DNA from: Victivallales bacterium | Lineage (GTDB): Bacteria; Verrucomicrobiota; Lentisphaeria; Oligosphaerales; Oligosphaeraceae | Direction of reading: 5' to 3' | Length of the DNA: 9,639 nucleotides | NCBI GenBank assembly: GCA_017963875.1 | Contig: JAGCTA010000474.1 | Coordinates: 1-9,639 of the forward strand | In this document: piece after piece, positions 1-9,639 of the stretch | How the letters are laid out: every line of letters starts with the position of its first letter | Position numbering within the stretch: the first letter of the stretch is position 1 | Notes under the pieces: generated by a model | What the model was told of the DNA's origin: nothing | Seen by the model: the letters and a program-made list of their open reading frames with translations, nothing else | Database searches by the model: none | Position numbers and translations under genes: made by a program

Positions 1-537
1 ATCGATAACGTCAACGTTACCTTTTCTAACGTTACCTTCGATATAAACACGGAGTCTGAAAGCAATTATCCGCGTCTGACGCCTATCGGTGGTTATGTCG
101 GCACGCTTATGAACATCGGTGTCAACAACGATGGCTGGTGGGGCGAGGGCGAAATCAAATTCTACATGGACGGCGACCGTGAGTTCCCGACCATCTGCGG
201 CACGGGCACCGAGGACTATTTCGGCGGCTCCTATGGTTTTGAGAGAAACCATCAATATCAGGAGTTCTGCACACCCTACATGGGACTGCACGCAGTCTTC
301 CGCCCCGACGGTCTTTACCGCACTCAGCAGCGCTTCAGCATGTATCGCTGGCATATCATGGACCCCATCCGCTTCGAGAGCGACCTGCGCGTGACCATTC
401 AGGACCTTGGCTGGCGCGCATACGGCAAATACCTTCCGCTGCAAGACGACATCTCCACCGTCGCCTACTGGTACCAGACGCTTCCGACAGCCCCCTTCCC
501 GCAACTCCCCGACCGCGATTATCTAGAAGTCATCTGA
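1..537 (+). CDS. GH172 (DUF2961) family glycoside hydrolase, 3' part
   Basis: This frame is open from the first base and ends at TGA 535-537, so about 178 C-terminal residues are present and the start lies left of the window. The segment around bases 133-234 holds WWGEGE, then FYMDGD, then GTGTEDYFGG, the signature block of DUF2961, now glycoside hydrolase family 172. Known members act on fructo- or arabinofuranosides (difructose dianhydride I synthase/hydrolase, arabinan-degrading enzymes) and form trimers of double jelly-roll subunits. The two conserved acidic spots, the Glu pair in WGEGE and the Glu in GTEDYF, lie about 20 residues apart, matching the spacing of the two catalytic glutamates as I recall them for the family. 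The C-terminal strands (YRWHIMDPIRF, LGW) are also typical. Substrate cannot be told from this part. It converges with the minus-strand operon across a 45-base gap, where I see no convincing terminator hairpin. It is probably unrelated to the redox genes. Confidence 0.9.
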   Translation: MDNVNVTFSNVTFDINTESESNYPRLTPIGGYVGTLMNIGVNNDGWWGEGEIKFYMDGDREFPTICGTGTEDYFGGSYGFERNHQYQEFCTPYMGLHAVFRPDGLYRTQQRFSMYRWHIMDPIRFESDLRVTIQDLGWRAYGKYLPLQDDISTVAYWYQTLPTAPFPQLPDRDYLEVI

Positions 538-582
538 TGGTCTAAAACCTGGCGAAGGCTTTCTGACGGCGTTTTCAATCCA

Positions 583-2172
583 TCACAGTGCGGCCAAGGC
601 CAAGGCGATCATGAGGCCACCCAAGACGGCAAAAAGCGCCGCCATGATAACCTTCGTCGCGAAGACATGATGTTTCGCCCAGTCTCCGAGTGCCTTCGCG
701 CCTACCCCATACGCAGCCAGAGCCGTTATCACCACCAGTGGCACGATGAAGCAAATGTTGTAAAGGAAAAGGAACAACAGGAACTTGCCATTGATTCCCA
801 GGCTCGACAACGCCATCAGCACAGGAAAATACACTTGTCCCGTGCATGCCAGTTCCATAGACGAAACAATCCCCCCAAGCACAATCGCTGCAGGACACAT
901 CAGCCACGCATGGACATCCGTGAACTTGCGGATTTTCTCGTGGATGCCGCGATGCGTCTCCTTTGATAGCCCCATGTCCATGTCGCTCGCCTTGCCTGTC
1001 CGACGATAGCGCAATGCGTCGCGCAGATGAAGCACGCACAGCACAAAACCCACTAGAGCGAATATGCCGTAAATCAGAACTTTCAGCCAGTGAATCTCCT
1101 GAAGTTGGCGCAATACCATGGACAACGCTATCCCATAAAGAAAATACGTCAGAAAAACACCCAAACAAAATCCCGCACCGACAATAATAATCTGCGTGCG
1201 ACGGCGTTTCAGATACAACAAATAACTGATAAGGAAAATTGACGTCGCAAACGCGCATGGATTGATTCCGTCCGCGAGCCCCCCTCCTAGTACCGACACC
1301 CATCTTGTCGCGCCTATAAACGCTTCCAGACGGCTTTTTTCGCCATTCAGTTCCTCCTGTGTCAAAGGGGTCTTCCAAAATGGTGTTCCTTTGGCATTCT
1401 TCAGAGCCTCTGCCAGTTCCTTTGCAGTCGCAAGGCGTCCTGTCACATAACCATTTGTCCAGACGACCATCGGAGCCAGGTTTTCATCGGTCTGGGGAAT
1501 ATCAAACGCCTTTCGTACGCGCGACAACATCGCCTGGCCTTCAATGGTCGTGACATCGAACTCGTCAACATTCAGTCCCGTCACCATATCCTCAAGGAGA
1601 CCAAACTCGCGGCTCTGGCGTTCGCATTTCTTGCATCCTGGCTGACGGAAAAAGAGCAGTTCAGCATGAACCGCAGAAGAATTATCAGAGACAACAGCGG
1701 CTTTGCCATCCGCCTTTTCCTTTGCTTTCGCCATTTCGGCAAGCGCCTTTTTCGAGTAATTGTACTCCACAATCGGCGCGTCCGCAACCTCCGCCACGGC
1801 TTCGATTCCTGCGAAAATCCCGCCTGTCGGCGCCTGTTTCACCAACTCCGCCATGCGTGGCTCCAAGGAATTGAAGCCCTCGCGTCCGCAGACCATTTCA
1901 CGCCCCATGAGAATCACTGGAAACGTGTTTCCCTTGGCAACAGTCTCCAAGTCATCCTCGACGGCATTCAGAAAACGGTAATTCGCCTTGACGTCAATAT
2001 TGATGAAAACCATGACAGGATCATCTGGCGAATTGTATTTTTTGCTCCATGCGGATTTCAGTGCCGCGCAGTCCTCGCAGTCGCGGGAACCGAACAAAGC
2101 AATCCACGGGCGCGCGACCGCCGAAACAGCCACCAACAGAACAAGCACCAGTATCCTAATCAAATACCTCAT
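583..2172 (-). CDS. Fusion of two thioredoxin-like domains and a CcdA/DsbD-type thiol transporter
   Basis: The product has 529 residues and is an inner-membrane protein. From the ATG at 2172-2170 it begins with MRYLIRILVLVLLVAVSAVA, a signal peptide or anchor. A TTG at 2196 would add eight polar residues, so I prefer the ATG, although its Shine-Dalgarno is weak. Thioredoxin-like domain 1 spans about 21-120 with C32-E-D-C35. A Lys/Ala/Glu-rich linker follows, then domain 2 at about 168-262 with C180-K-K-C183. From about 290 to 529 there are six hydrophobic segments. The first holds INPCAFAT (C306) and the fourth ELACTGQ (C443), the paired membrane cysteines expected of the CcdA/DsbD/ScsB superfamily. 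Such proteins move electrons from cytoplasmic thioredoxin to exported thiol proteins. Two extracytoplasmic redox domains placed ahead of the channel resemble DsbD/ScsB in logic but not in detail. It starts 71 bases after the 1452-residue thioredoxin protein and is probably co-transcribed with it. The exact partner is inferred. Confidence 0.85.
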   Translation of the reverse strand: MRYLIRILVLVLLVAVSAVARPWIALFGSRDCEDCAALKSAWSKKYNSPDDPVMVFINIDVKANYRFLNAVEDDLETVAKGNTFPVILMGREMVCGREGFNSLEPRMAELVKQAPTGGIFAGIEAVAEVADAPIVEYNYSKKALAEMAKAKEKADGKAAVVSDNSSAVHAELLFFRQPGCKKCERQSREFGLLEDMVTGLNVDEFDVTTIEGQAMLSRVRKAFDIPQTDENLAPMVVWTNGYVTGRLATAKELAEALKNAKGTPFWKTPLTQEELNGEKSRLEAFIGATRWVSVLGGGLADGINPCAFATSIFLISYLLYLKRRRTQIIIVGAGFCLGVFLTYFLYGIALSMVLRQLQEIHWLKVLIYGIFALVGFVLCVLHLRDALRYRRTGKASDMDMGLSKETHRGIHEKIRKFTDVHAWLMCPAAIVLGGIVSSMELACTGQVYFPVLMALSSLGINGKFLLFLFLYNICFIVPLVVITALAAYGVGAKALGDWAKHHVFATKVIMAALFAVLGGLMIALALAAL

Positions 2173-2243
2173 CGTACTATCCGTAAAGAACAACAAAAAA
2201 ACTTTCAGACCATTTCATGCGACAGATGAGACTCTTTCAGGCA

Positions 2244-5200
2244 TTACTTCATGAACCATCCGCCAACGCCCTTGGGCAAAGGTTTGTCAACAGGGACAAA
2301 TCTCATTCCATTCCAATACCAACCAGAACTCCAGTCAGGCGGTTCCGCTGTAAACATCCATTCACTGCCCTCCGCTGGCACTATGACGCTTCTGGCTTTG
2401 ACAGAATCATACACCAGTCTCATGCTCTCCACAGGGACATCATTCAGGTGGAACCAAAATGCCTGTCCCGCCTCGACTTTATGCGCCATGACCATTGCGC
2501 CATTTTCGTACGCCATGGGATTCAACGACATAAGTTTTTCCATGGAGGCAGGCGTCAGCAACGCCAAGTCCCATGGCATTGCCAAAATATTCCATCCTCC
2601 GTGCCACGGTACTTCGAGTGTATTCAGCCAGAACTCCAATGCACCTGCCACAGTCAGTTGCAACGCCCCGCTGGTACGCTTGTCGCCTTCGCCCAAATTG
2701 TAAATTCTGGCATCACCCGCAGGAAGCAAACGCGGGCCATCATTCCGCCACAGCATCACTGTATCGCCTACAACAGCCAGCAACCAGCCGTCTGCAGTGA
2801 ATTCCTCGGGAGCATCCGATGCGGCAATGCCTCCCGAAACACGCACAGGCACTGAGGCCTCATCAGGAAGCGTATAATTGTTGTGTGCGCCATAAAGCGC
2901 CGCAAAACCGCTCTTTCCATCTGGAAGGACATAATACCCCGCCGCCACTGGCCTTTCGTCCCAGGCGCAGCAATCCTGCTCCATCGGCACAACTGCCAAA
3001 GTCAACAATGCTTGTTGAATAGACGTCGCCCCAGTCTTGTCATTGACAAAAACGTTAACTGCGCCTGTCAGACAGCCTTGGACGGCGTTTCGAGTCAACG
3101 ATACATAACCGTAGGGCTCTGTATCCCCCGTGATGTTTCCAGCATCGTCTTCCATCAAGGCGACTGCCACTGGAACCGCCATGTCAAATCCTTCCAAGGA
3201 TGAAAGCGACAGCCAGAATTCCCCGACATTCAGTCCAAGCCTGTCTGATATCGTTTCCTCAAAATCCTCCACGCCGAAAGCCACGAATCCCGTGACATCC
3301 TCCTCCGTGGCAAGGCAGGCAAGAACTCCATCAGGCGTTCTCAGCATGTATTGTTCATAATAGTCATCTGGCAACACATCTGGACACAACGCCAACTCGA
3401 CGACAGCACCAAACGTGCTTCCCTTCTCATTGTCACGTCCATAGACAATGGCGGCGACCGCCTCTTGGGTCGTCATCCATTCCACGACATCATCTCCGCC
3501 AGCGAACCCTGGCATCCGTGCATTCCAACCCCATGATTCATCCCCTGCCCTCAACATCAAGACTCCACCAGCCCCTCCTGGGACATAGTAATCCTGCAGA
3601 AATCCATTATATCCTGACGCCAGAGGCAACGGCTCCGCAGCCAGACTGCCAGCAATTGACAATGTTCCATTCGGAGAAGTCATCGTGCCTGAGACAAGCC
3701 CCTCATTCGTCACGGTAAGGACAAATTTCTGGTCACCGTTTTCTAATTCAGTCGTCAGTATGCCCGTAGCGGAATCAACGGCTGTCCAGCAACCTGATAT
3801 AATTTCCCCTATGCCGTATTCGCAGGCGTATGTCATTGAAAGCACACCTTCTTCGTCCGATGTCAACCGCAGACGCCCGCGCACCAGGCGCTGGCCGTCC
3901 TGCAGCATTTCATAGAAATACCCTGCAAAACATCTGCTGTAGCCGAATGGATTGATGTCATCCAAATTTCGAACGGCATATTTGACGAACAATCCCTCGC
4001 TGAGAGTCTCCTTTTCACCATCCTTCACGGCAAGTTTCAATGAAAATGTTCCTAAATCCTTGGAATCTGGCAATGCCTCGATTCGCAGAATGCCCTCTGG
4101 TCCCTCTCCCTGCTCCAATGTAAGTTTCATCCATTCTGGAACGAACATCCATATCTGGGCATATTCCTCTGGATCGGTAGGCTTTAGGGAGACGTCTCCC
4201 GCCAGGCCGTTGTGGAACGGCACCTCGACAACTGTCTTCACATATTCCATGATATTCATCAAATCCACTTCATCAACTTCAAACGCAGGCAATGAATAGA
4301 CACACCCCTGCGTGACGCCAATGGCACCGACAGACACACCCTCCCCTGATACGACTTCAAGTTGCAGGGAAAACGACCTTACACCTTCCCATGGTTGCAG
4401 CCCCGCGTTGTCCAGTGTCAGCGTGGCGTTTTTCGATATGCCTGCCGCACGCTCATCGGCTGTCCATGACACGAAGTCCTCTGCAATGGCGACTGTCAAG
4501 TCATCATCCTCATTGACCAATTTGACCTTGACCGCCATGCCGTCACCTGCCGTATCGTAGTTGCGAATGCCGATAGGTACAATTGCTTTCGTAGATATTT
4601 GCTTGAGTTTAATTGCTTTTGACTCGAACAAGACTTCCGTCTTAACATCCTCCGTGCATTCCCATGACAACTGATAGGGCACTGGCCCCTTTGAATTTGG
4701 AGCCGTTACACGCACACGGCACAACTGGCCAGTCTTGTTCGAAGCAATCCAGCGCAATTCCACGCCTTTCGCCAAATCATTTTCAGCGGATGTCAGCAAT
4801 TCCCCCGTCAATCCACCGTCCGCCACAGCAATAAGTTCCATCTTGACCTTTTCCGATGCGGTTCCCTTCACCGTCAGCACCCAGCGCTCCAGCGCGCTTT
4901 GCACTTTAAAACCATACCAGTCACGCTCATCAACACCCCCGATGACCCTGTCGGCAATCGGCGAAACACCATTGTTCAATTGATCTGAAACCGTTTCTCC
5001 GTCATAATTATCAAGGTTCTCTCCTTCGTCTGCCGCCACTGTCTGGAACTGGAAGAACTTCTCCCTCTCCCCTTCGCCAGTCAACTTCGAGGAGACAATG
5101 ACATACGCGCTGCCCTTCGGCGGCGTAAAGGCACCATCGTTGTTCGTGAAGTACCCGACAATACTGCCGTCCCTTCCACGCCTGTAAATCAACGTGGGAT

Positions 5201-6602
5201 AGCAGATTGGCTTGGCATCGCTCATGGAACCGACTGGCTCCAATAGGCTTTCCAATATCGTTGTGGTATTCTCCTTGAGTTTTTCAGCACCCTGCTCCAA
5301 AGTCAATCCATTGCGCTCCAGATAACCTCCAGGCGAATCATCGCAAAGAAGTGACGTGCCGTAGGGGTTTCCATCCATATAGGCTTGTGTCAGCCGACGG
5401 CGGTTTTCGACATGCACCAGATAGGCGTTCTCAGCCGCCCAGTCGCGGAATTCCTTGGTCTCCACGAAATACCTTTGCATTTTCATGCAATAGGGACACC
5501 ACGTCACCGCGCCGACATTGACGACGACATCCTTGCCGTTCGCCTTAGCGGCCGCAAGAGCCGCATCCATATCCATCGTCCATTTGCCAAGATATGCCCC
5601 GCTGAAATACGGGTCAGTGATATCTCCTTTTTCTGGGATGTCCTCTTCATGGAAGATAAGCCTGAAACGGTTTTTGTCGCCCTCGATTCCCGTGGCATAA
5701 AGCCGCAAATGATAAAGGCCGCCTTCCGTCGCCAGAAGATAGAATCCATGGTCAAGCACGGTCAGCCCATCGCCCTCGCCGCTCTTCACCAGCGTGCTGC
5801 CAAAGAACAACTGGTAGCCAACACGGGCGGGCGCGGTGTCGCCTGTCGCGTAATATCCGCCGAAACCGACCTGTCTGCCTGCCTCGACTGTGAATGAATA
5901 CCACAGTTCGGTAACATCCTTTGTGAACATCTGGTTTTGAAGCGTCTTGGTTCCATCAGAGGGAATTGGATTCAGCAGCGTGCTGTTATCCAGACTTGCC
6001 CAATAAGCATTCGGAAAACTGGCTTCGACAATCGCTGAGAATTCACTGAATTTCGGAGGATTGCCGACAGACACTCCGTGGATGGTGTTCTTGTACTTGA
6101 AATTAAAGAAAGCCACGATATCGACCTCGTCTGCCAGAAGGCTTGGCGAAGTCAAATCAGCCGTGTCCTTCACATGGACAAGCGCCGTCATGGGAAATTC
6201 AGACACCTTGTTCGCAACTGCGGCATTATAACTTTTCACAAAGGTATTCCGCAGTTTCTCCTCCTTGACAACCACTGGAAGAACACGCTTCGCCGCAGCC
6301 CAGGCTTTTACTGGGAAAATACCGTAGGTTTCATCTGTTGGTTCGCATCCCTCGTCGTGGGAAACAATGCCATCGCACAAGGCATTTACCCATGCGGTCT
6401 TGCAATGATTACATTCATTGTTTCCCCTGGAAATATGAACCAAGATGGGACGGTTGTTGTCGAATGCCGCCTTTTTTATTTCCAACACCGTTTCATTGTC
6501 ATCGGAACGAATCTCTGTCCATCCCGCGCCGTAGTTCCACTCCGCCACCTCCTGTGCAAATGCAAAAAAAGAAACTAAAACCAATAGAATCGTTTTTCTC
6601 AT
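2244..6602 (-). CDS. Giant exported protein with two N-terminal thioredoxin-like domains and a C-terminal GWN module
   Basis: The product has 1452 residues. I chose the ATG at 6602 because AAGGAG lies just upstream; a GTG at 6632 would overlap the preceding gene and push the signal peptide inward. The N-terminus (MRKTILLVLVSFFAFAQ) is a signal peptide. Thioredoxin-like domain 1 (about 35-185) has C64-N-H-C67 and a likely cis-Pro at 137. A beta-rich segment resembling bacterial pre-peptidase C-terminal (PPC) domains follows (about 205-325). Thioredoxin-like domain 2 (about 345-490) has W368-C-P-Y-C372 and a YPT motif with Pro469. A second PPC-like stretch begins near 531 (DNYDGETVSDQ, RDWYGFKV). 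The rest is beta-rich and unrecognised until the C-terminus, where a CC...PV..GYY segment (C1211, C1212) and a GWN...P segment (W1337) match the right-edge protein. The likely role is an exported thiol-disulfide oxidoreductase or redox-dependent surface protein, reduced by the CcdA fusion encoded downstream. Substrate is unknown. There is no recognisable membrane anchor or sortase signal at the C-terminus. Confidence 0.85.
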   Translation of the reverse strand: MRKTILLVLVSFFAFAQEVAEWNYGAGWTEIRSDDNETVLEIKKAAFDNNRPILVHISRGNNECNHCKTAWVNALCDGIVSHDEGCEPTDETYGIFPVKAWAAAKRVLPVVVKEEKLRNTFVKSYNAAVANKVSEFPMTALVHVKDTADLTSPSLLADEVDIVAFFNFKYKNTIHGVSVGNPPKFSEFSAIVEASFPNAYWASLDNSTLLNPIPSDGTKTLQNQMFTKDVTELWYSFTVEAGRQVGFGGYYATGDTAPARVGYQLFFGSTLVKSGEGDGLTVLDHGFYLLATEGGLYHLRLYATGIEGDKNRFRLIFHEEDIPEKGDITDPYFSGAYLGKWTMDMDAALAAAKANGKDVVVNVGAVTWCPYCMKMQRYFVETKEFRDWAAENAYLVHVENRRRLTQAYMDGNPYGTSLLCDDSPGGYLERNGLTLEQGAEKLKENTTTILESLLEPVGSMSDAKPICYPTLIYRRGRDGSIVGYFTNNDGAFTPPKGSAYVIVSSKLTGEGEREKFFQFQTVAADEGENLDNYDGETVSDQLNNGVSPIADRVIGGVDERDWYGFKVQSALERWVLTVKGTASEKVKMELIAVADGGLTGELLTSAENDLAKGVELRWIASNKTGQLCRVRVTAPNSKGPVPYQLSWECTEDVKTEVLFESKAIKLKQISTKAIVPIGIRNYDTAGDGMAVKVKLVNEDDDLTVAIAEDFVSWTADERAAGISKNATLTLDNAGLQPWEGVRSFSLQLEVVSGEGVSVGAIGVTQGCVYSLPAFEVDEVDLMNIMEYVKTVVEVPFHNGLAGDVSLKPTDPEEYAQIWMFVPEWMKLTLEQGEGPEGILRIEALPDSKDLGTFSLKLAVKDGEKETLSEGLFVKYAVRNLDDINPFGYSRCFAGYFYEMLQDGQRLVRGRLRLTSDEEGVLSMTYACEYGIGEIISGCWTAVDSATGILTTELENGDQKFVLTVTNEGLVSGTMTSPNGTLSIAGSLAAEPLPLASGYNGFLQDYYVPGGAGGVLMLRAGDESWGWNARMPGFAGGDDVVEWMTTQEAVAAIVYGRDNEKGSTFGAVVELALCPDVLPDDYYEQYMLRTPDGVLACLATEEDVTGFVAFGVEDFEETISDRLGLNVGEFWLSLSSLEGFDMAVPVAVALMEDDAGNITGDTEPYGYVSLTRNAVQGCLTGAVNVFVNDKTGATSIQQALLTLAVVPMEQDCCAWDERPVAAGYYVLPDGKSGFAALYGAHNNYTLPDEASVPVRVSGGIAASDAPEEFTADGWLLAVVGDTVMLWRNDGPRLLPAGDARIYNLGEGDKRTSGALQLTVAGALEFWLNTLEVPWHGGWNILAMPWDLALLTPASMEKLMSLNPMAYENGAMVMAHKVEAGQAFWFHLNDVPVESMRLVYDSVKARSVIVPAEGSEWMFTAEPPDWSSGWYWNGMRFVPVDKPLPKGVGGWFMK

Positions 6603-6606
6603 TTTA

Positions 6607-6612
6607 CTCCTT
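6607..6612 (-). promoter_or_regulatory. Strong Shine-Dalgarno for the 1452-residue protein
   Basis: The minus strand reads GGGGAAGGAGTAAAATG here. AAGGAG sits four bases ahead of the ATG at 6602-6600 and lies in the 22-base gap after the upstream stop at 6625-6627. It decides the start against the GTG at 6632-6630 and supports translational coupling within the operon. Confidence 0.8.
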
Positions 6613-6624
6613 CCCCTTTTTTGT

Positions 6625-7899
6625 TTATTCACTAGGTATTTTATTTATAGCAGGCCGATTGCCTTGCCTTGTACTATTCCTATTGGAAACAACGACTTCG
6701 ATTATTCCTTCTGGTTTGCCTTTGAGTTTTAATTGCAATTTTACCTTTTTGTCAGGCTGCTTAAGGATTTCTGGAGAGATTTTAAGAGAAAATGTCAATG
6801 CCTCCCCCTGCATATCCCTGGAAATACTGATGCATTCATTTTCTGAAGCCAACTCCACATCCGATAATATTTTCTCATTATAATCGACAGGACGCGTGGC
6901 TCTGGCTTTCTTCTCCTCAATACTGACATGGAAACCGCCATGGGCCTTGTCCAATTTATCGACATGATCGTGTTTTCTGCTGCGTATTTTCAAATTGCCA
7001 AAGGGACTTTTTGGGGCATTCGATGTTTCCTCCCAATCTTTCAGGGTTACAATCAATGTACGTTCAGGAATGATGCCATTTGAAAAATCTTCTTCTGACA
7101 AACGAAATGACTTGCTGCTCAACAGGTATTTACGTCCCAAGACTTTTCCAATCAGCCTCAGGCGAATGCCCATGTCCTCACCCAACAATGGAACGGGAAG
7201 AAAGACAACCTCTGTGAAATTGCCTGCCTGCAGCGGCAGTTTTGGAGTCACTTCCAATTCATAGACGCGTGCCTTTTCGTCTTTCAAAGCAAGTTTCAAG
7301 TTAAATCGTGGGCTTTCTTTCGGCGGGAGAATGGTGAGAGCGGCGTTCTTCTCTGGATTCGTTGCCTTGATGGTGAATTTTCTTGTCCAGAGAATATCGG
7401 AACCTTCAAACTCTCCAAGGTACATGCTCGCGTCTGGAGAAATGGATATAAGCGGCTTGAATATCCCAGATACCTTAAGCGAAGCCTCGGAATATCCTTT
7501 TGACTCAAGATAAATCCAACGATACCAACTACCTGACGTATGCCCCAGACGACTGCCAAAGAGTTTTGCTCGAATGTTGATTCGCTCTCCTGGAACAAGT
7601 TTCCTCGGAGCGGGGGACTCCACAATCTCTATGCACGAACAACTGCTTATTGCACGCTTGAAAAACACCTCTTCCTTGCCTTTGTTCTCTGCCTCAACAG
7701 TGAATTCCAAAAGGCTGGCTTCATTCACTTCACCAAGATTCTTTTCCTCGCCCTCGACTAATGCAAGAGTACTTTCAGGCAGATCCTGCTCCTCCTCTGT
7801 GGTTTCCTCGACGTCCTGCACAACAGGTTCTACGGCATAAAAAGCCATACTCAAACCAAATAGTATAACAAGCAAACAACAAATTGTTCTTTGTGACAT
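6625..7899 (-). CDS. Exported DUF1573-type protein
   Basis: The product has 424 residues. The ATG at 7899 has AAGGAA six bases upstream. The N-terminus (MSQRTICCLLVILFGLSMAFYA) is a signal peptide, followed by a very acidic stretch at about 24-42. Residues about 45-130 fit DUF1573: a short strand, then KNLGEV, a hydrophobic EFTVEAENKG segment, and ISSCSCIEI with C87-S-C89, followed by a proline and PGE turn. DUF1573 is an immunoglobulin-like, exported domain of unknown function, common in Bacteroidetes and PVC bacteria, whose usual mark is a C-x-C at this position. Residues about 140-424 contain further beta-rich repeats (for example FKPLISISPD, and later KISPEILKQPDKKVKLQLKLKGKPEG), so the protein may be a string of such folds. 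It is the first gene of the minus-strand operon and ends 22 bases before the giant thioredoxin protein. The two close cysteines could be a substrate of the relay, which is inference. Confidence 0.8.
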   Translation of the reverse strand: MSQRTICCLLVILFGLSMAFYAVEPVVQDVEETTEEEQDLPESTLALVEGEEKNLGEVNEASLLEFTVEAENKGKEEVFFKRAISSCSCIEIVESPAPRKLVPGERINIRAKLFGSRLGHTSGSWYRWIYLESKGYSEASLKVSGIFKPLISISPDASMYLGEFEGSDILWTRKFTIKATNPEKNAALTILPPKESPRFNLKLALKDEKARVYELEVTPKLPLQAGNFTEVVFLPVPLLGEDMGIRLRLIGKVLGRKYLLSSKSFRLSEEDFSNGIIPERTLIVTLKDWEETSNAPKSPFGNLKIRSRKHDHVDKLDKAHGGFHVSIEEKKARATRPVDYNEKILSDVELASENECISISRDMQGEALTFSLKISPEILKQPDKKVKLQLKLKGKPEGIIEVVVSNRNSTRQGNRPAINKIPSE

Positions 7900-7905
7900 A
7901 GCTTC

Positions 7906-7911
7906 TTCCTT
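7906..7911 (-). promoter_or_regulatory. Shine-Dalgarno for the DUF1573 gene
   Basis: The minus strand reads AAGGAAGAAGCT and then ATG, so a good ribosome binding site lies at normal distance from the start at 7899. This supports the chosen start and marks the 5' end of the operon. Confidence 0.7.
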
Positions 7912-7923
7912 TTTTCACGTTTT

Positions 7924-7948
7924 TTCCTTGAACTGCGCTCTCAAGGAA
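7924..7948 (-). promoter_or_regulatory. 8-bp inverted repeat in the operon leader
   Basis: TTCCTTGA (7924-7931) and TCAAGGAA (7941-7948) are perfect inverted arms around a 9-base centre. The element ends 24 bases before the DUF1573 start and just ahead of its ribosome binding site. It could be an operator for a dimeric regulator or an RNA stem-loop in the leader. On the minus strand the arm is followed by A residues, so it is not an intrinsic terminator for that strand. I could not fit a confident -35/-10 pair nearby. Confidence 0.45.
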
Positions 7949-7981
7949 CAGAACAAGCGCAAATATCACCCACAAAAGCAC

Positions 7982-8005
7982 AGGCTGGAGACCTACTCTC
8001 AGCCT
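7982..8005 (-). terminator. Possible weak terminator or attenuator stem-loop
   Basis: AGGCTG (7982-7987) and CAGCCT (8000-8005) form inverted arms that can extend to a bulged stem by pairing GAG with CTC. On the minus strand the stem is followed by GTGCTTTTGTG, a short T-run. It sits between the repeat mosaic and the operon, so it could end transcripts coming from the right-edge gene, or it may just be another palindrome of the repeat region. The T-tract is poor. Confidence 0.3.
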
Positions 8006-8118
8006 AGGCGGACCGTGATGCGGGCTGGGCTGGCTAATGGTCCTGGGCGGACCGCAGAGCGGGCCACTTGTTCTGTGCGGATACCGCGAAAACGGGCCGG
8101 ACTGACTAATGGCCATCT

Positions 8119-8203
8119 GCGGACCGCAGAGCGGACCGGGCCGAATTGAGGGCTATGCTTAACGCTAACGCGGTTGCGCTACGCCCTCCAAGTTCCCATC
8201 GCC
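8119..8203. repeat. 85-bp direct repeat, copy A
   Basis: This copy runs from GCGGACCGCAGAGCGG through CCGAATTGAG and CGCTAACGCGGTTGCGCTAC to TTCCCATCGCC. By eye it matches copy B (8567-8654) at all but six positions, with one 3-base gap. It combines a class 1 and a class 2 palindrome in fixed order, so this compound is itself a mobile or recombining unit. Confidence 0.85.
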
Positions 8204-8449
8204 GCTACGCGGCTCTCCAGACATTCACGCGGTTTTCCGTGGGTTGCGCTACACCGCTAACGCGGTTACGCTTCACCCACGGCTACCCTTCCTTCGCCGC
8301 TAACGCGGCTATGTCCACGGCTACTCGTCCTGTGCAGCCCGCGAAGCGGGAGCTGGCTCATCTCATCGGACTGGCCGCGAGATGCCAACAGCCGGGGACC
8401 ACCCGTCCTGTGCGGACCGCGAAGCGGGCCGGGGGCCACCCGTTCTATG

Positions 8450-8492
8450 CCGCTCGCAAAGCGAGCGGAGGGCAGATACTCGTCCTGTGCGG
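8450..8492. repeat. 43-bp direct repeat with perfect hairpin, first copy
   Basis: Perfect arms CCGCTCGC (8450-8457) and GCGAGCGG (8461-8468) around AAA are followed by AGGGCAGATACTCGTCCTGTGCGG. The same order recurs at 8529-8570 with an AA loop and a few substitutions. The two copies are 79 bases apart start to start, with related class 1 sequence between them. Confidence 0.8.
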
Positions 8493-8528
8493 ATCGCCAA
8501 GCGAGCCGGGCTGGCTAATGGCCATGTG

Positions 8529-8570
8529 CCGCTCGCAAGCGAGCGGAGGGCGGATACTTGTTCTGGGCGG
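8529..8570. repeat. 42-bp direct repeat with perfect hairpin, second copy
   Basis: CCGCTCGC (8529-8536), AA, GCGAGCGG (8539-8546), then AGGGCGGATACTTGTTCTGGGCGG. It is the second copy of the unit at 8450-8492 and runs directly into direct-repeat copy B. Confidence 0.8.
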
Positions 8571-8654
8571 ACCGCAGAGCGGGCTGGGCCGAATTGAGAG
8601 CTGCGCTTACCGCTAACGCGGTTGCGCTACGCCCTCCAACATGTTCCCATCGCC
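8567..8654. repeat. 88-bp direct repeat, copy B, overlapping the right-edge gene
   Basis: It is homologous to 8119-8203, with six substitutions and a 3-base insertion (CAT at 8640-8642 or an equivalent placement). Its right part, 8613-8654, encodes the last 13 residues and the TAG stop of the minus-strand gene that follows; the stop lies inside the CCGCTAACGCGG palindrome (8610-8621). The 3-base insertion keeps the reading frame and adds one Met codon. Confidence 0.85.
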
Positions 8655-9639
8655 CTCGTCTATCGATCGAATGGGTTTATAGGTAAATTTAAAATAGCCA
8701 TTTTTCCAATACCAGAAGCGTGTGATTTCATCATAATTCAATGGTTGTGACTCGAATTTCAACGTCTTCAACGTCTTTCCATCCTCCTGCAATGTTTTCT
8801 CTACCCAACCACCAATCATTGGGTTGCTCTTTCCAGACTCTGGATTCTTTCCTGCCAGTTTGAACGATTGCGGCTCTGTCGCATATACCCAGTAGGCTTT
8901 GCCTGGTTTCAAGAAATCAGTCATAACCATCGCTCGCGAATCTAATGTATAAAGCGGCATGGACTTCAGATTATCACATAGAGCATCAAAAGTAGGAATA
9001 CTATCCCATGTCAGAGAATCTTTCTCAGGTATACCTATCAGGTTCCAGCCACGCTCTAATTCCAGACTCATGGCGATGGTATCTGAAACCGTCAAGGTCA
9101 TGACTTCGCCTTCTCCATTCGTTCCACTCAAGTCAACGGGGCAAAGCGTCCAGTTCCCTGGCTCAAGTGACAAAGAATCTGCCTCGTCTATGATTATGAC
9201 TATATCATCCGTAGAATCATCTGGAGTACTATTATCACCTACCGCAAGGATATCCGCCACCTTGCTGAAAGTCACCTCGGCACCATTTTTCTCCAATCCA
9301 GAAATGACTTGCTCTGCATCGTCAGACCATGCAACGCCATTTGCCTGGCTGGGAGATAACTCATCTGCAGCAGGTGCAAGATATTCCGTATTTTCTTCTC
9401 CATCTACTACAACCGAGCGTCCCCAATAGATTCTCACTGGGTAACTGACCCCATCCCATTCATAATAGCCCAGGCCTACGGGGTGGACTTCAGTCTTGCA
9501 ACAAAATCCTGTGGCAGCGACCAAAATACCATGGACCATAACATCGTCAATGCGTTCACAATCTTTTTTTTCTACAAAACGATTGCTTATAATACTGCGT
9601 GAATACAGAGTGATTGTTCCAGAAAACTCACCAACTATC
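8613..9639 (-). CDS. C-terminal part of a large exported protein with the GWN module, 5' partial
   Basis: An ATG exists at 9539, but the frame stays open for 33 further codons to the window edge. Those codons read as ordinary protein (EFSGTITLYS, ISNRFVEKKD), so I annotate a partial gene of 341 codons. No domain name comes to mind. What can be seen: a strand-rich segment with GFCCKTE...HPVGLGYYEW, an acidic Asp/Ser-rich stretch (STPDDSTDDIVIIIDEAD), then ERGWNLIGIP, SRAMVMTDFLKPGKAYWVYA and RFWYWKNGYFKF. The order CC...PV..GYY, GWN...P, AMVM, G.A.W, WYW.NG, KP is the same as in the last ~250 residues of the 1452-residue protein, so both carry one homologous C-terminal module. The final residues (GDGNMLEGVAQPR) come from direct-repeat copy B and do not match the family end. 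Function is unknown; exported location is inferred from composition and homology. Confidence 0.75.
   Translation of the reverse strand, partial: IVGEFSGTITLYSRSIISNRFVEKKDCERIDDVMVHGILVAATGFCCKTEVHPVGLGYYEWDGVSYPVRIYWGRSVVVDGEENTEYLAPAADELSPSQANGVAWSDDAEQVISGLEKNGAEVTFSKVADILAVGDNSTPDDSTDDIVIIIDEADSLSLEPGNWTLCPVDLSGTNGEGEVMTLTVSDTIAMSLELERGWNLIGIPEKDSLTWDSIPTFDALCDNLKSMPLYTLDSRAMVMTDFLKPGKAYWVYATEPQSFKLAGKNPESGKSNPMIGGWVEKTLQEDGKTLKTLKFESQPLNYDEITRFWYWKNGYFKFTYKPIRSIDEGDGNMLEGVAQPR

Follow-up and report, generated by a model that had tools for sequence, protein, structure and literature searches.

What does a CcdA-like transporter feed when its gene stands beside those of a DUF1573 protein and of a giant protein with several thioredoxin heads? 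The question is raised by a 9,639-nt stretch of Victivallales bacterium DNA (contig JAGCTA010000474.1, positions 1 to 9,639; the whole stretch is called the window here), in which these three genes lie on the minus strand with spacings of 22 and 71 bases, exactly where a preliminary description had placed them. That description proposed an exported thiol-disulfide relay and, taken as a whole, is partly supported by the present analysis. The best explanation, to which a probability of about 0.5 is assigned, is that the transporter feeds electrons outward to the giant, which in turn reduces or reshuffles the cysteines of a six-cysteine protein encoded in the wider cluster of related genomes. Export of the giant and of the DUF1573 protein is predicted from their signal-peptide-like starts. 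The features concerned are as follows.

6625..7899, minus strand: DUF1573 protein of 424 residues, with a signal-peptide-like start and homologs, a conserved neighbour
7633..7641, minus strand: CSC (CxC) motif of the DUF1573 protein, residues 87-89, the CxC kept among homologs
2244..6602, minus strand: giant multi-thioredoxin protein of 1452 residues, with a signal-peptide-like start and a ribosome-site-like sequence ahead of the ATG
6063..6539, minus strand: thioredoxin domain T1 of the giant, residues 22-180, with CNHC at 6402-6413
5628..6065, minus strand: beta-sandwich (PPC-like) domain P1 of the giant, from a structure model and a score of 96.8 against P2
5043..5630, minus strand: thioredoxin domain T2 of the giant, residues 325-520, with WCPYC (CPYC at 5487-5498)
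4653..4985, minus strand: PPC-like domain P2 of the giant, residues 540-650
4284..4646, minus strand: Calx-beta-like domain of the giant, residues 653-773
3966..4292, minus strand: Ig/cadherin-like beta domain of the giant, residues 771-879
2247..2630, minus strand: C-terminal GWN domain (CT) of the giant, common to other large proteins of these genomes
583..2172, minus strand: Trx-Trx-membrane transporter of 529 residues, CcdA-like
1768..2121, minus strand: thioredoxin-like domain A of the transporter, with CEDC at 2068-2079
1375..1686, minus strand: thioredoxin domain B of the transporter, with CKKC at 1624-1635
589..1359, minus strand: predicted membrane domain of the transporter, from a structure model, with Cys306 at 1255-1257 (NPC) and Cys443 at 844-846 (ELACTG)

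The association of these genes was followed through the class of Oligosphaera ethanolica (G001), in 197 genomes that are mostly metagenome assemblies without stated completeness, by searches in which a limited number of candidates was scored for each genome. The thresholds were set after viewing the results, at gaps in the lists: E <= 1e-150 for the transporter (next best 1.5e-105) and E <= 1e-35 for the giant (next best genome 7.9e-21). At these thresholds the transporter occurs in 26 genomes, once in each, the giant in 22 and both in 19 (Fisher 6.8e-18, uncorrected for shared ancestry). Rare adjacency had been named beforehand as counting against a relay, and adjacency proved to be common: giant and transporter share a contig in 15 of the 19 genomes (G001 to G007, G010, G037, G042, G044, G045, G048, G052 and G053), with the two matches within about 6 kb of each other in 14 of these and about 9 kb apart in G048. 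The gene order varies between giant-DUF1573-transporter and DUF1573-giant-transporter, yet the linkage persists. The three genes are a conserved operon-like unit of Lentisphaerota.

The wider cluster was read in 19 longer regions chosen from genomes with giant or transporter; long flanks were not fetched for the giants of G007, G037, G039, G042, G044, G045 and G053. Three regions (L164, L165 and L169) end at the start of the giant, and 13 loci have sequence upstream of it. A recurring order was found, comprising a CT-domain protein of ~620-820 residues, the six-cysteine protein, a HEAT-like protein, a parvulin (PF00639), the giant, the DUF1573 protein and the transporter. G002, G003 and G010 have all of it, as does G004 with an extra giant before the DUF1573 gene; in other genomes single genes have been moved, inverted or placed on other contigs. 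In 12 of the 13 loci a parvulin gene precedes a giant (L168 is the exception, and in L167 a CT-domain gene intervenes). A lack of folding genes nearby is thus true only of the short window and fails for its relatives. The six-cysteine protein has a signal-peptide-like start and keeps five cysteines in 18/18 sequences and the sixth in 17/18; a Pfam scan of seven members gave nothing clear (best E 0.092). The protein is encoded once each in 18 of the 197 genomes, 17 of which have the giant and one of which (G055) does not (Fisher 3.3e-19, again uncorrected for shared ancestry), and a phylum-wide draw of 387 genomes returned 13 such proteins, all within the known set. In 12 of the 17 genomes its gene is at most about 10 kb from the giant on the same contig. 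This predicted-exported protein is the best client candidate.

Both heads of the giant are related to thioredoxins. T2 matches PF13899 (Thioredoxin_7) at 1.3e-10, the NCBIfam DsbH model at 2.3e-7 and chlamydial DsbH (PDB 2ju5) at E 0.0025, while hhalign gives 97.9 for T1 against T2 and 97.3 and 97.2 for T1 and T2, respectively, against the thioredoxin domain of DsbD. At 31 bits T2 is below the DsbH equivalog cut-off of 190 bits, so that the giant is said to work like DsbH and is not classed as DsbH. It had been cast as the terminal acceptor of the relay, which it need not be: because T2 resembles an oxidoreductase, the giant more probably acts as an intermediate or a catalyst, and the wider cluster of its relatives holds a candidate client. 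Poor conservation of its CXXC cysteines had been named as the other point that would count against the relay, and they are conserved: C64/C67 of T1 are kept in 16/16 aligned rows with letters and C369/C372 of T2 in 18/19, where multi-copy proteins are represented by their last T1 copy only. The second pair is also kept in 15 of the 18 giant frames read from longer regions. The unusual size of this thioredoxin partner was rightly stressed: the giants span ~1400-2240 residues and bear two to five heads, with five Thioredoxin_7 stretches in that of L022. Internal duplication has made the number of heads vary, with head copies 46 to 92% identical within one protein and first copies 23 to 41% between proteins. 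The heads are separated by PPC-like domains, and Calx-beta and cadherin/Ig-like domains are found in the same chain. Three giant paralogs (L011:2593-7224, L157:7689-12401 and L163:1618-6768) keep the first CXXC and have lost the second, and their genomes hold another giant that keeps both pairs or has the second. The GWN domain, which may serve this lineage for surface sorting or anchoring, has 6 to 23 matches at E <= 0.01 in each of 10/10 genomes (G001-G008, G010 and G045), and the open frames that contain it reach 10182 residues.

In the transporter, C32/C35 are kept in 36/36 sequences of a close set, C180/C183 in 35/36, and C306 and C443 in 36/36 each; the last two are also present in 21/21 sequences of a distant set. 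A structure model places Cys306 and Cys443 in membrane helices 1 and 4, and two conserved redox cysteines in these helices are the rule for DsbD and CcdA. A low-significance alignment pairs them with the DsbD cysteines in TPC and ACVAP. Domain A matches Thioredoxin_2 in 32/36 members at E up to 0.1, and several relatives are named CcdA in their source records. The ArsG model matches the window protein at 5.1e-4, under the model cut-off of 200 bits, and 15/21 distant-set proteins (best 5.3e-9); PF13386 is found in 2/21 of the latter (best 6.4e-6, matched region unspecified) and is not among the matches of the 10 of them that were scanned singly. The membrane domain is likely kin to CcdA/DsbD, and the protein looks like an electron exporter. 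Relatives with the Trx-Trx-CcdA-like arrangement are widespread, in Chloroflexi, Atribacteria, Omnitrophota and others. In four Verrucomicrobiales loci (L053, L073, L076 and L077) frames of 1361-1472 residues end in a C-terminal Trx-CcdA-like part, preceded in L053 by HEAT repeats, and similar long frames recur in the transporter search of the 197 genomes. Related genes lie 3' of the transporter in L001, L002, L003 and L021, and those of L001 and L021 match calcineurin-type phosphoesterase and 5'-nucleotidase domains.

Other thiol-redox systems were sought in 20 genomes, a non-random set consisting of the 19 with giant and transporter plus G009 (G001-G010, G037, G039, G041, G042, G044, G045, G048, G049, G052 and G053). 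VKOR, DsbA and DsbB each matched in 0/20 genomes, with controls matching in 3/14, 8/14 and 6/14, respectively; predicted-exported proteins with conserved cysteines nevertheless exist there. A separate, ordinary DsbD is encoded away from the cluster in 18 of the 20 (not in G002 or G052), and the 14 of these that were read are full-length DsbD-type proteins. The transporter of the module is therefore a second exported thiol route in those 18 genomes. The cytochrome c assembly protein PF01578 was found in only 8/20 genomes, away from the cluster in all 8, so the client is not generally cytochrome c, in agreement with the preliminary description.

The DUF1573 protein borders its family score, with 25.1 bits against the PF07610 gathering cut-off of 26.1 and a match at residues 50-113; relatives in the same gene position reach the cut-off (41 bits in G006, for example), and that of G007, missed by Pfam, was recovered by a local profile. 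None of the 12 proteins checked lacks the CxC, and the 25 aligned rows all have it. DUF1573 is sparse, with 32 matches in the 20 genomes, 17 of them beside the giant/transporter module. It adjoins giant or transporter in 18 genomes (the transporter in 15, the giant in G008, G048 and G049) and neither in G009 and G039. Outside the class, a profile trained on Lentisphaerota found it near or fused with the transporter in 7/53 distant loci: it lies 13 bp off in WOR-3 (L062) and 5 bp off in Omnitrophota (L070), four Atribacteria loci have it at a distance of 0.8 to 1.0 kb, and in Poribacteria (L027:1981-4185) it is fused ahead of two thioredoxin-like domains and a membrane domain (PF07610 1.3e-20). 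The portions available of two reviews tabulate a DUF1573 selenoprotein with UGC (PMC9312934; PMC13188914), and selenocysteine at that position would be expected of a redox site.

Taken together, these observations suggest a route whose direction and client we infer. Electrons of cytoplasmic thioredoxin would pass to Cys306/Cys443 in the membrane, from there to CKKC and CEDC of the transporter, and on to CNHC and CPYC of the giant, whose heads would reduce or reshuffle the cysteines of the six-cysteine protein. The giant would then act like DsbH or a protein disulfide isomerase and not as a structural end product, its beta domains possibly holding the heads at a distance from the membrane. The CxC of the DUF1573 protein may be a second exchange site or a client, and the parvulin may aid folding of the six-cysteine protein. 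The fuller picture, offered tentatively, is that Lentisphaerota, lacking any DsbA, DsbB or VKOR match, run a dedicated envelope station for disulfide handling, with a giant whose heads multiply by tandem duplication, its own transporter beside DsbD, a parvulin, DUF1573 as a CxC partner and a six-cysteine client.

A number of observations weigh against the outward route to the giant and its client. Giant and transporter are on different contigs in G008, G039, G041 and G049; a giant at E <= 1e-35 is missing from seven of the 26 transporter genomes (G009, G024, G043, G047, G051, G054 and G055), and a close transporter from three of the 22 giant genomes (G030, G038 and G046), of which G030 has a weaker transporter match at 1.9e-94. 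Five of the 22 (G037, G041, G042, G044 and G045) have no six-cysteine protein, and in 5/17 genomes with both (G005, G007, G030, G038 and G049) its gene is on another contig; the protein could bind metal instead. Neither its gene nor that of the parvulin was seen in the window, itself a contig fragment. Sequence support for the likely CcdA/DsbD identity of the membrane domain is weak: PF02683 and PF13386 do not match the window transporter, the transporter places are not among the PF02683 DsbD matches in the 20 genomes, and the domain aligns poorly with DsbD (23.6%; in a deeper alignment 27.1% local and 1.6% global). Two of the 21 giants, both upstream paralogs that lack the second CXXC, were omitted from the giant alignment, which holds the other 19, and the second pair is absent in L156, L157:7689-12401 and L163:1618-6768, each beside a second giant keeping it. 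Because each such genome retains an intact giant, these paralogs leave confidence unaltered. Lastly, CPYC/CPHC and CxHC motifs recall glutaredoxin, DsbA and protein disulfide isomerase, and the giant could be oxidising.

The direction of the electrons is the main doubt. An alternative possibility is that the giant takes the place of DsbA, DsbB and VKOR as a disulfide oxidase or isomerase of the envelope and makes the disulfides of exported proteins, with the transporter resetting or counterbalancing it. This is judged unlikely, and it is a serious rival because CPHC, the DsbA motif, stands at T2 in several relatives (L021, L002, L011:12742-17349, L019, L163, L166 and L169). It would account for the lack of VKOR, DsbA and DsbB matches in the 20 genomes, where the search for an acceptor of such an oxidase covered these three families only, and the six conserved cysteines of the putative client could make three disulfides. 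However, DsbD sends electrons outward, and the membrane protein linked to the giant resembles an electron exporter; DsbH, one relative of T2 among others, is moreover described as reducing in the part available of PMC5193440.

It is more doubtful that the DUF1573 protein with its CxC is the main client and the giant only a lineage-specific carrier or tether. The company that DUF1573 keeps with the transporter in WOR-3, Omnitrophota and Atribacteria, its fusion in Poribacteria and the tabulated UGC form all speak for this, as does G041, where it is with the transporter and the giant is on another contig. G008 and G049, by contrast, have it beside the giant, away from the transporter, and 7/53, obtained with a Lentisphaerota-trained profile, is a small share of the distant loci. 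The Calx-beta and cadherin/Ig-like domains, together with a C-terminal domain that very large open frames also carry, would also suit a surface adhesin-like protein whose heads serve stress repair without a dedicated folding client, a role with precedent in the pneumococcal CcdA-Etrx-MsrAB2 surface pathway (PMC3914529, in the part available). This is improbable, since the giant is closely linked to the parvulin and six-cysteine genes, and no methionine sulfoxide reductase or peroxidase was found among the selection of neighbours scanned with Pfam. That the genes are mere neighbours with separate roles is very improbable indeed. Related genomes do inherit gene order together, and the four genomes with giant and transporter on different contigs fit separate roles, but the order differs while linkage persists, and DUF1573 is linked or fused to the transporter across phyla.

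The proposed system shares with DsbD, CcdA and ScsB a membrane protein with two membrane cysteines, exported thioredoxin-fold domains and partners. It differs from them in its two tandem N-terminal thioredoxin domains, in a membrane domain outside Pfam DsbD_TM, in a giant as partner and in the presence of an ordinary DsbD elsewhere in most of the genomes. Like eukaryotic protein disulfide isomerase and ERdj5, the giant carries several thioredoxin heads on one chain of an exported compartment; here, PPC-like domains lie between the heads and Calx-beta and Ig-like domains follow, and no sequence kinship is claimed. Chlamydial DsbH has the same type of thioredoxin domain as T2 and comes from the same PVC group, whereas the solved DsbH chain has 154 residues and the heads described here sit on a giant beta scaffold. 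Chlamydia, moreover, has both DsbA and DsbB (PMC5193440, as far as the available part goes), unlike the genomes considered here. The pneumococcal pathway likewise joins CcdA to thioredoxin-fold proteins of the cell surface with a defined partner to serve (PMC3914529, same portion), but its Etrx proteins are lipoproteins, with a repair enzyme as client. With respect to its own family, the window DUF1573 protein keeps the CxC and is matched over only a small part of its 424 residues; Pfam assigns the family no function.

If the outward route is true, it would provide a bacterial functional counterpart of a multi-headed disulfide isomerase in a group without a DsbA, DsbB or VKOR match in the 20 genomes. 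The fuller picture of an envelope station would also provide a first function for DUF1573, as far as searches show. The work makes testable what Trx-Trx-CcdA-like proteins feed and what DUF1573 does, and names a concrete client candidate in the six-cysteine protein.

One further gene of the window carries the GWN domain.

8613..9638, minus strand: CT-domain protein, C-terminal part of 341 residues, open at the window edge (CT match 1.7e-7)

It is closest to the giants of L156 (6.3e-10) and L157 (3.7e-9) and is probably the counterpart of the second giant gene in G004. At the other end, positions 1-537 of the plus strand hold the 3' part of a gene for a DUF2961 protein (PF11175, E 1e-45), convergent with the cluster. 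The interval between the CT-domain and DUF1573 genes (7997-8640) is G+C-rich and contains short, diverged direct repeats, with up to 7 copies of 21-28 nt and one 73-nt pair that is 92% identical.

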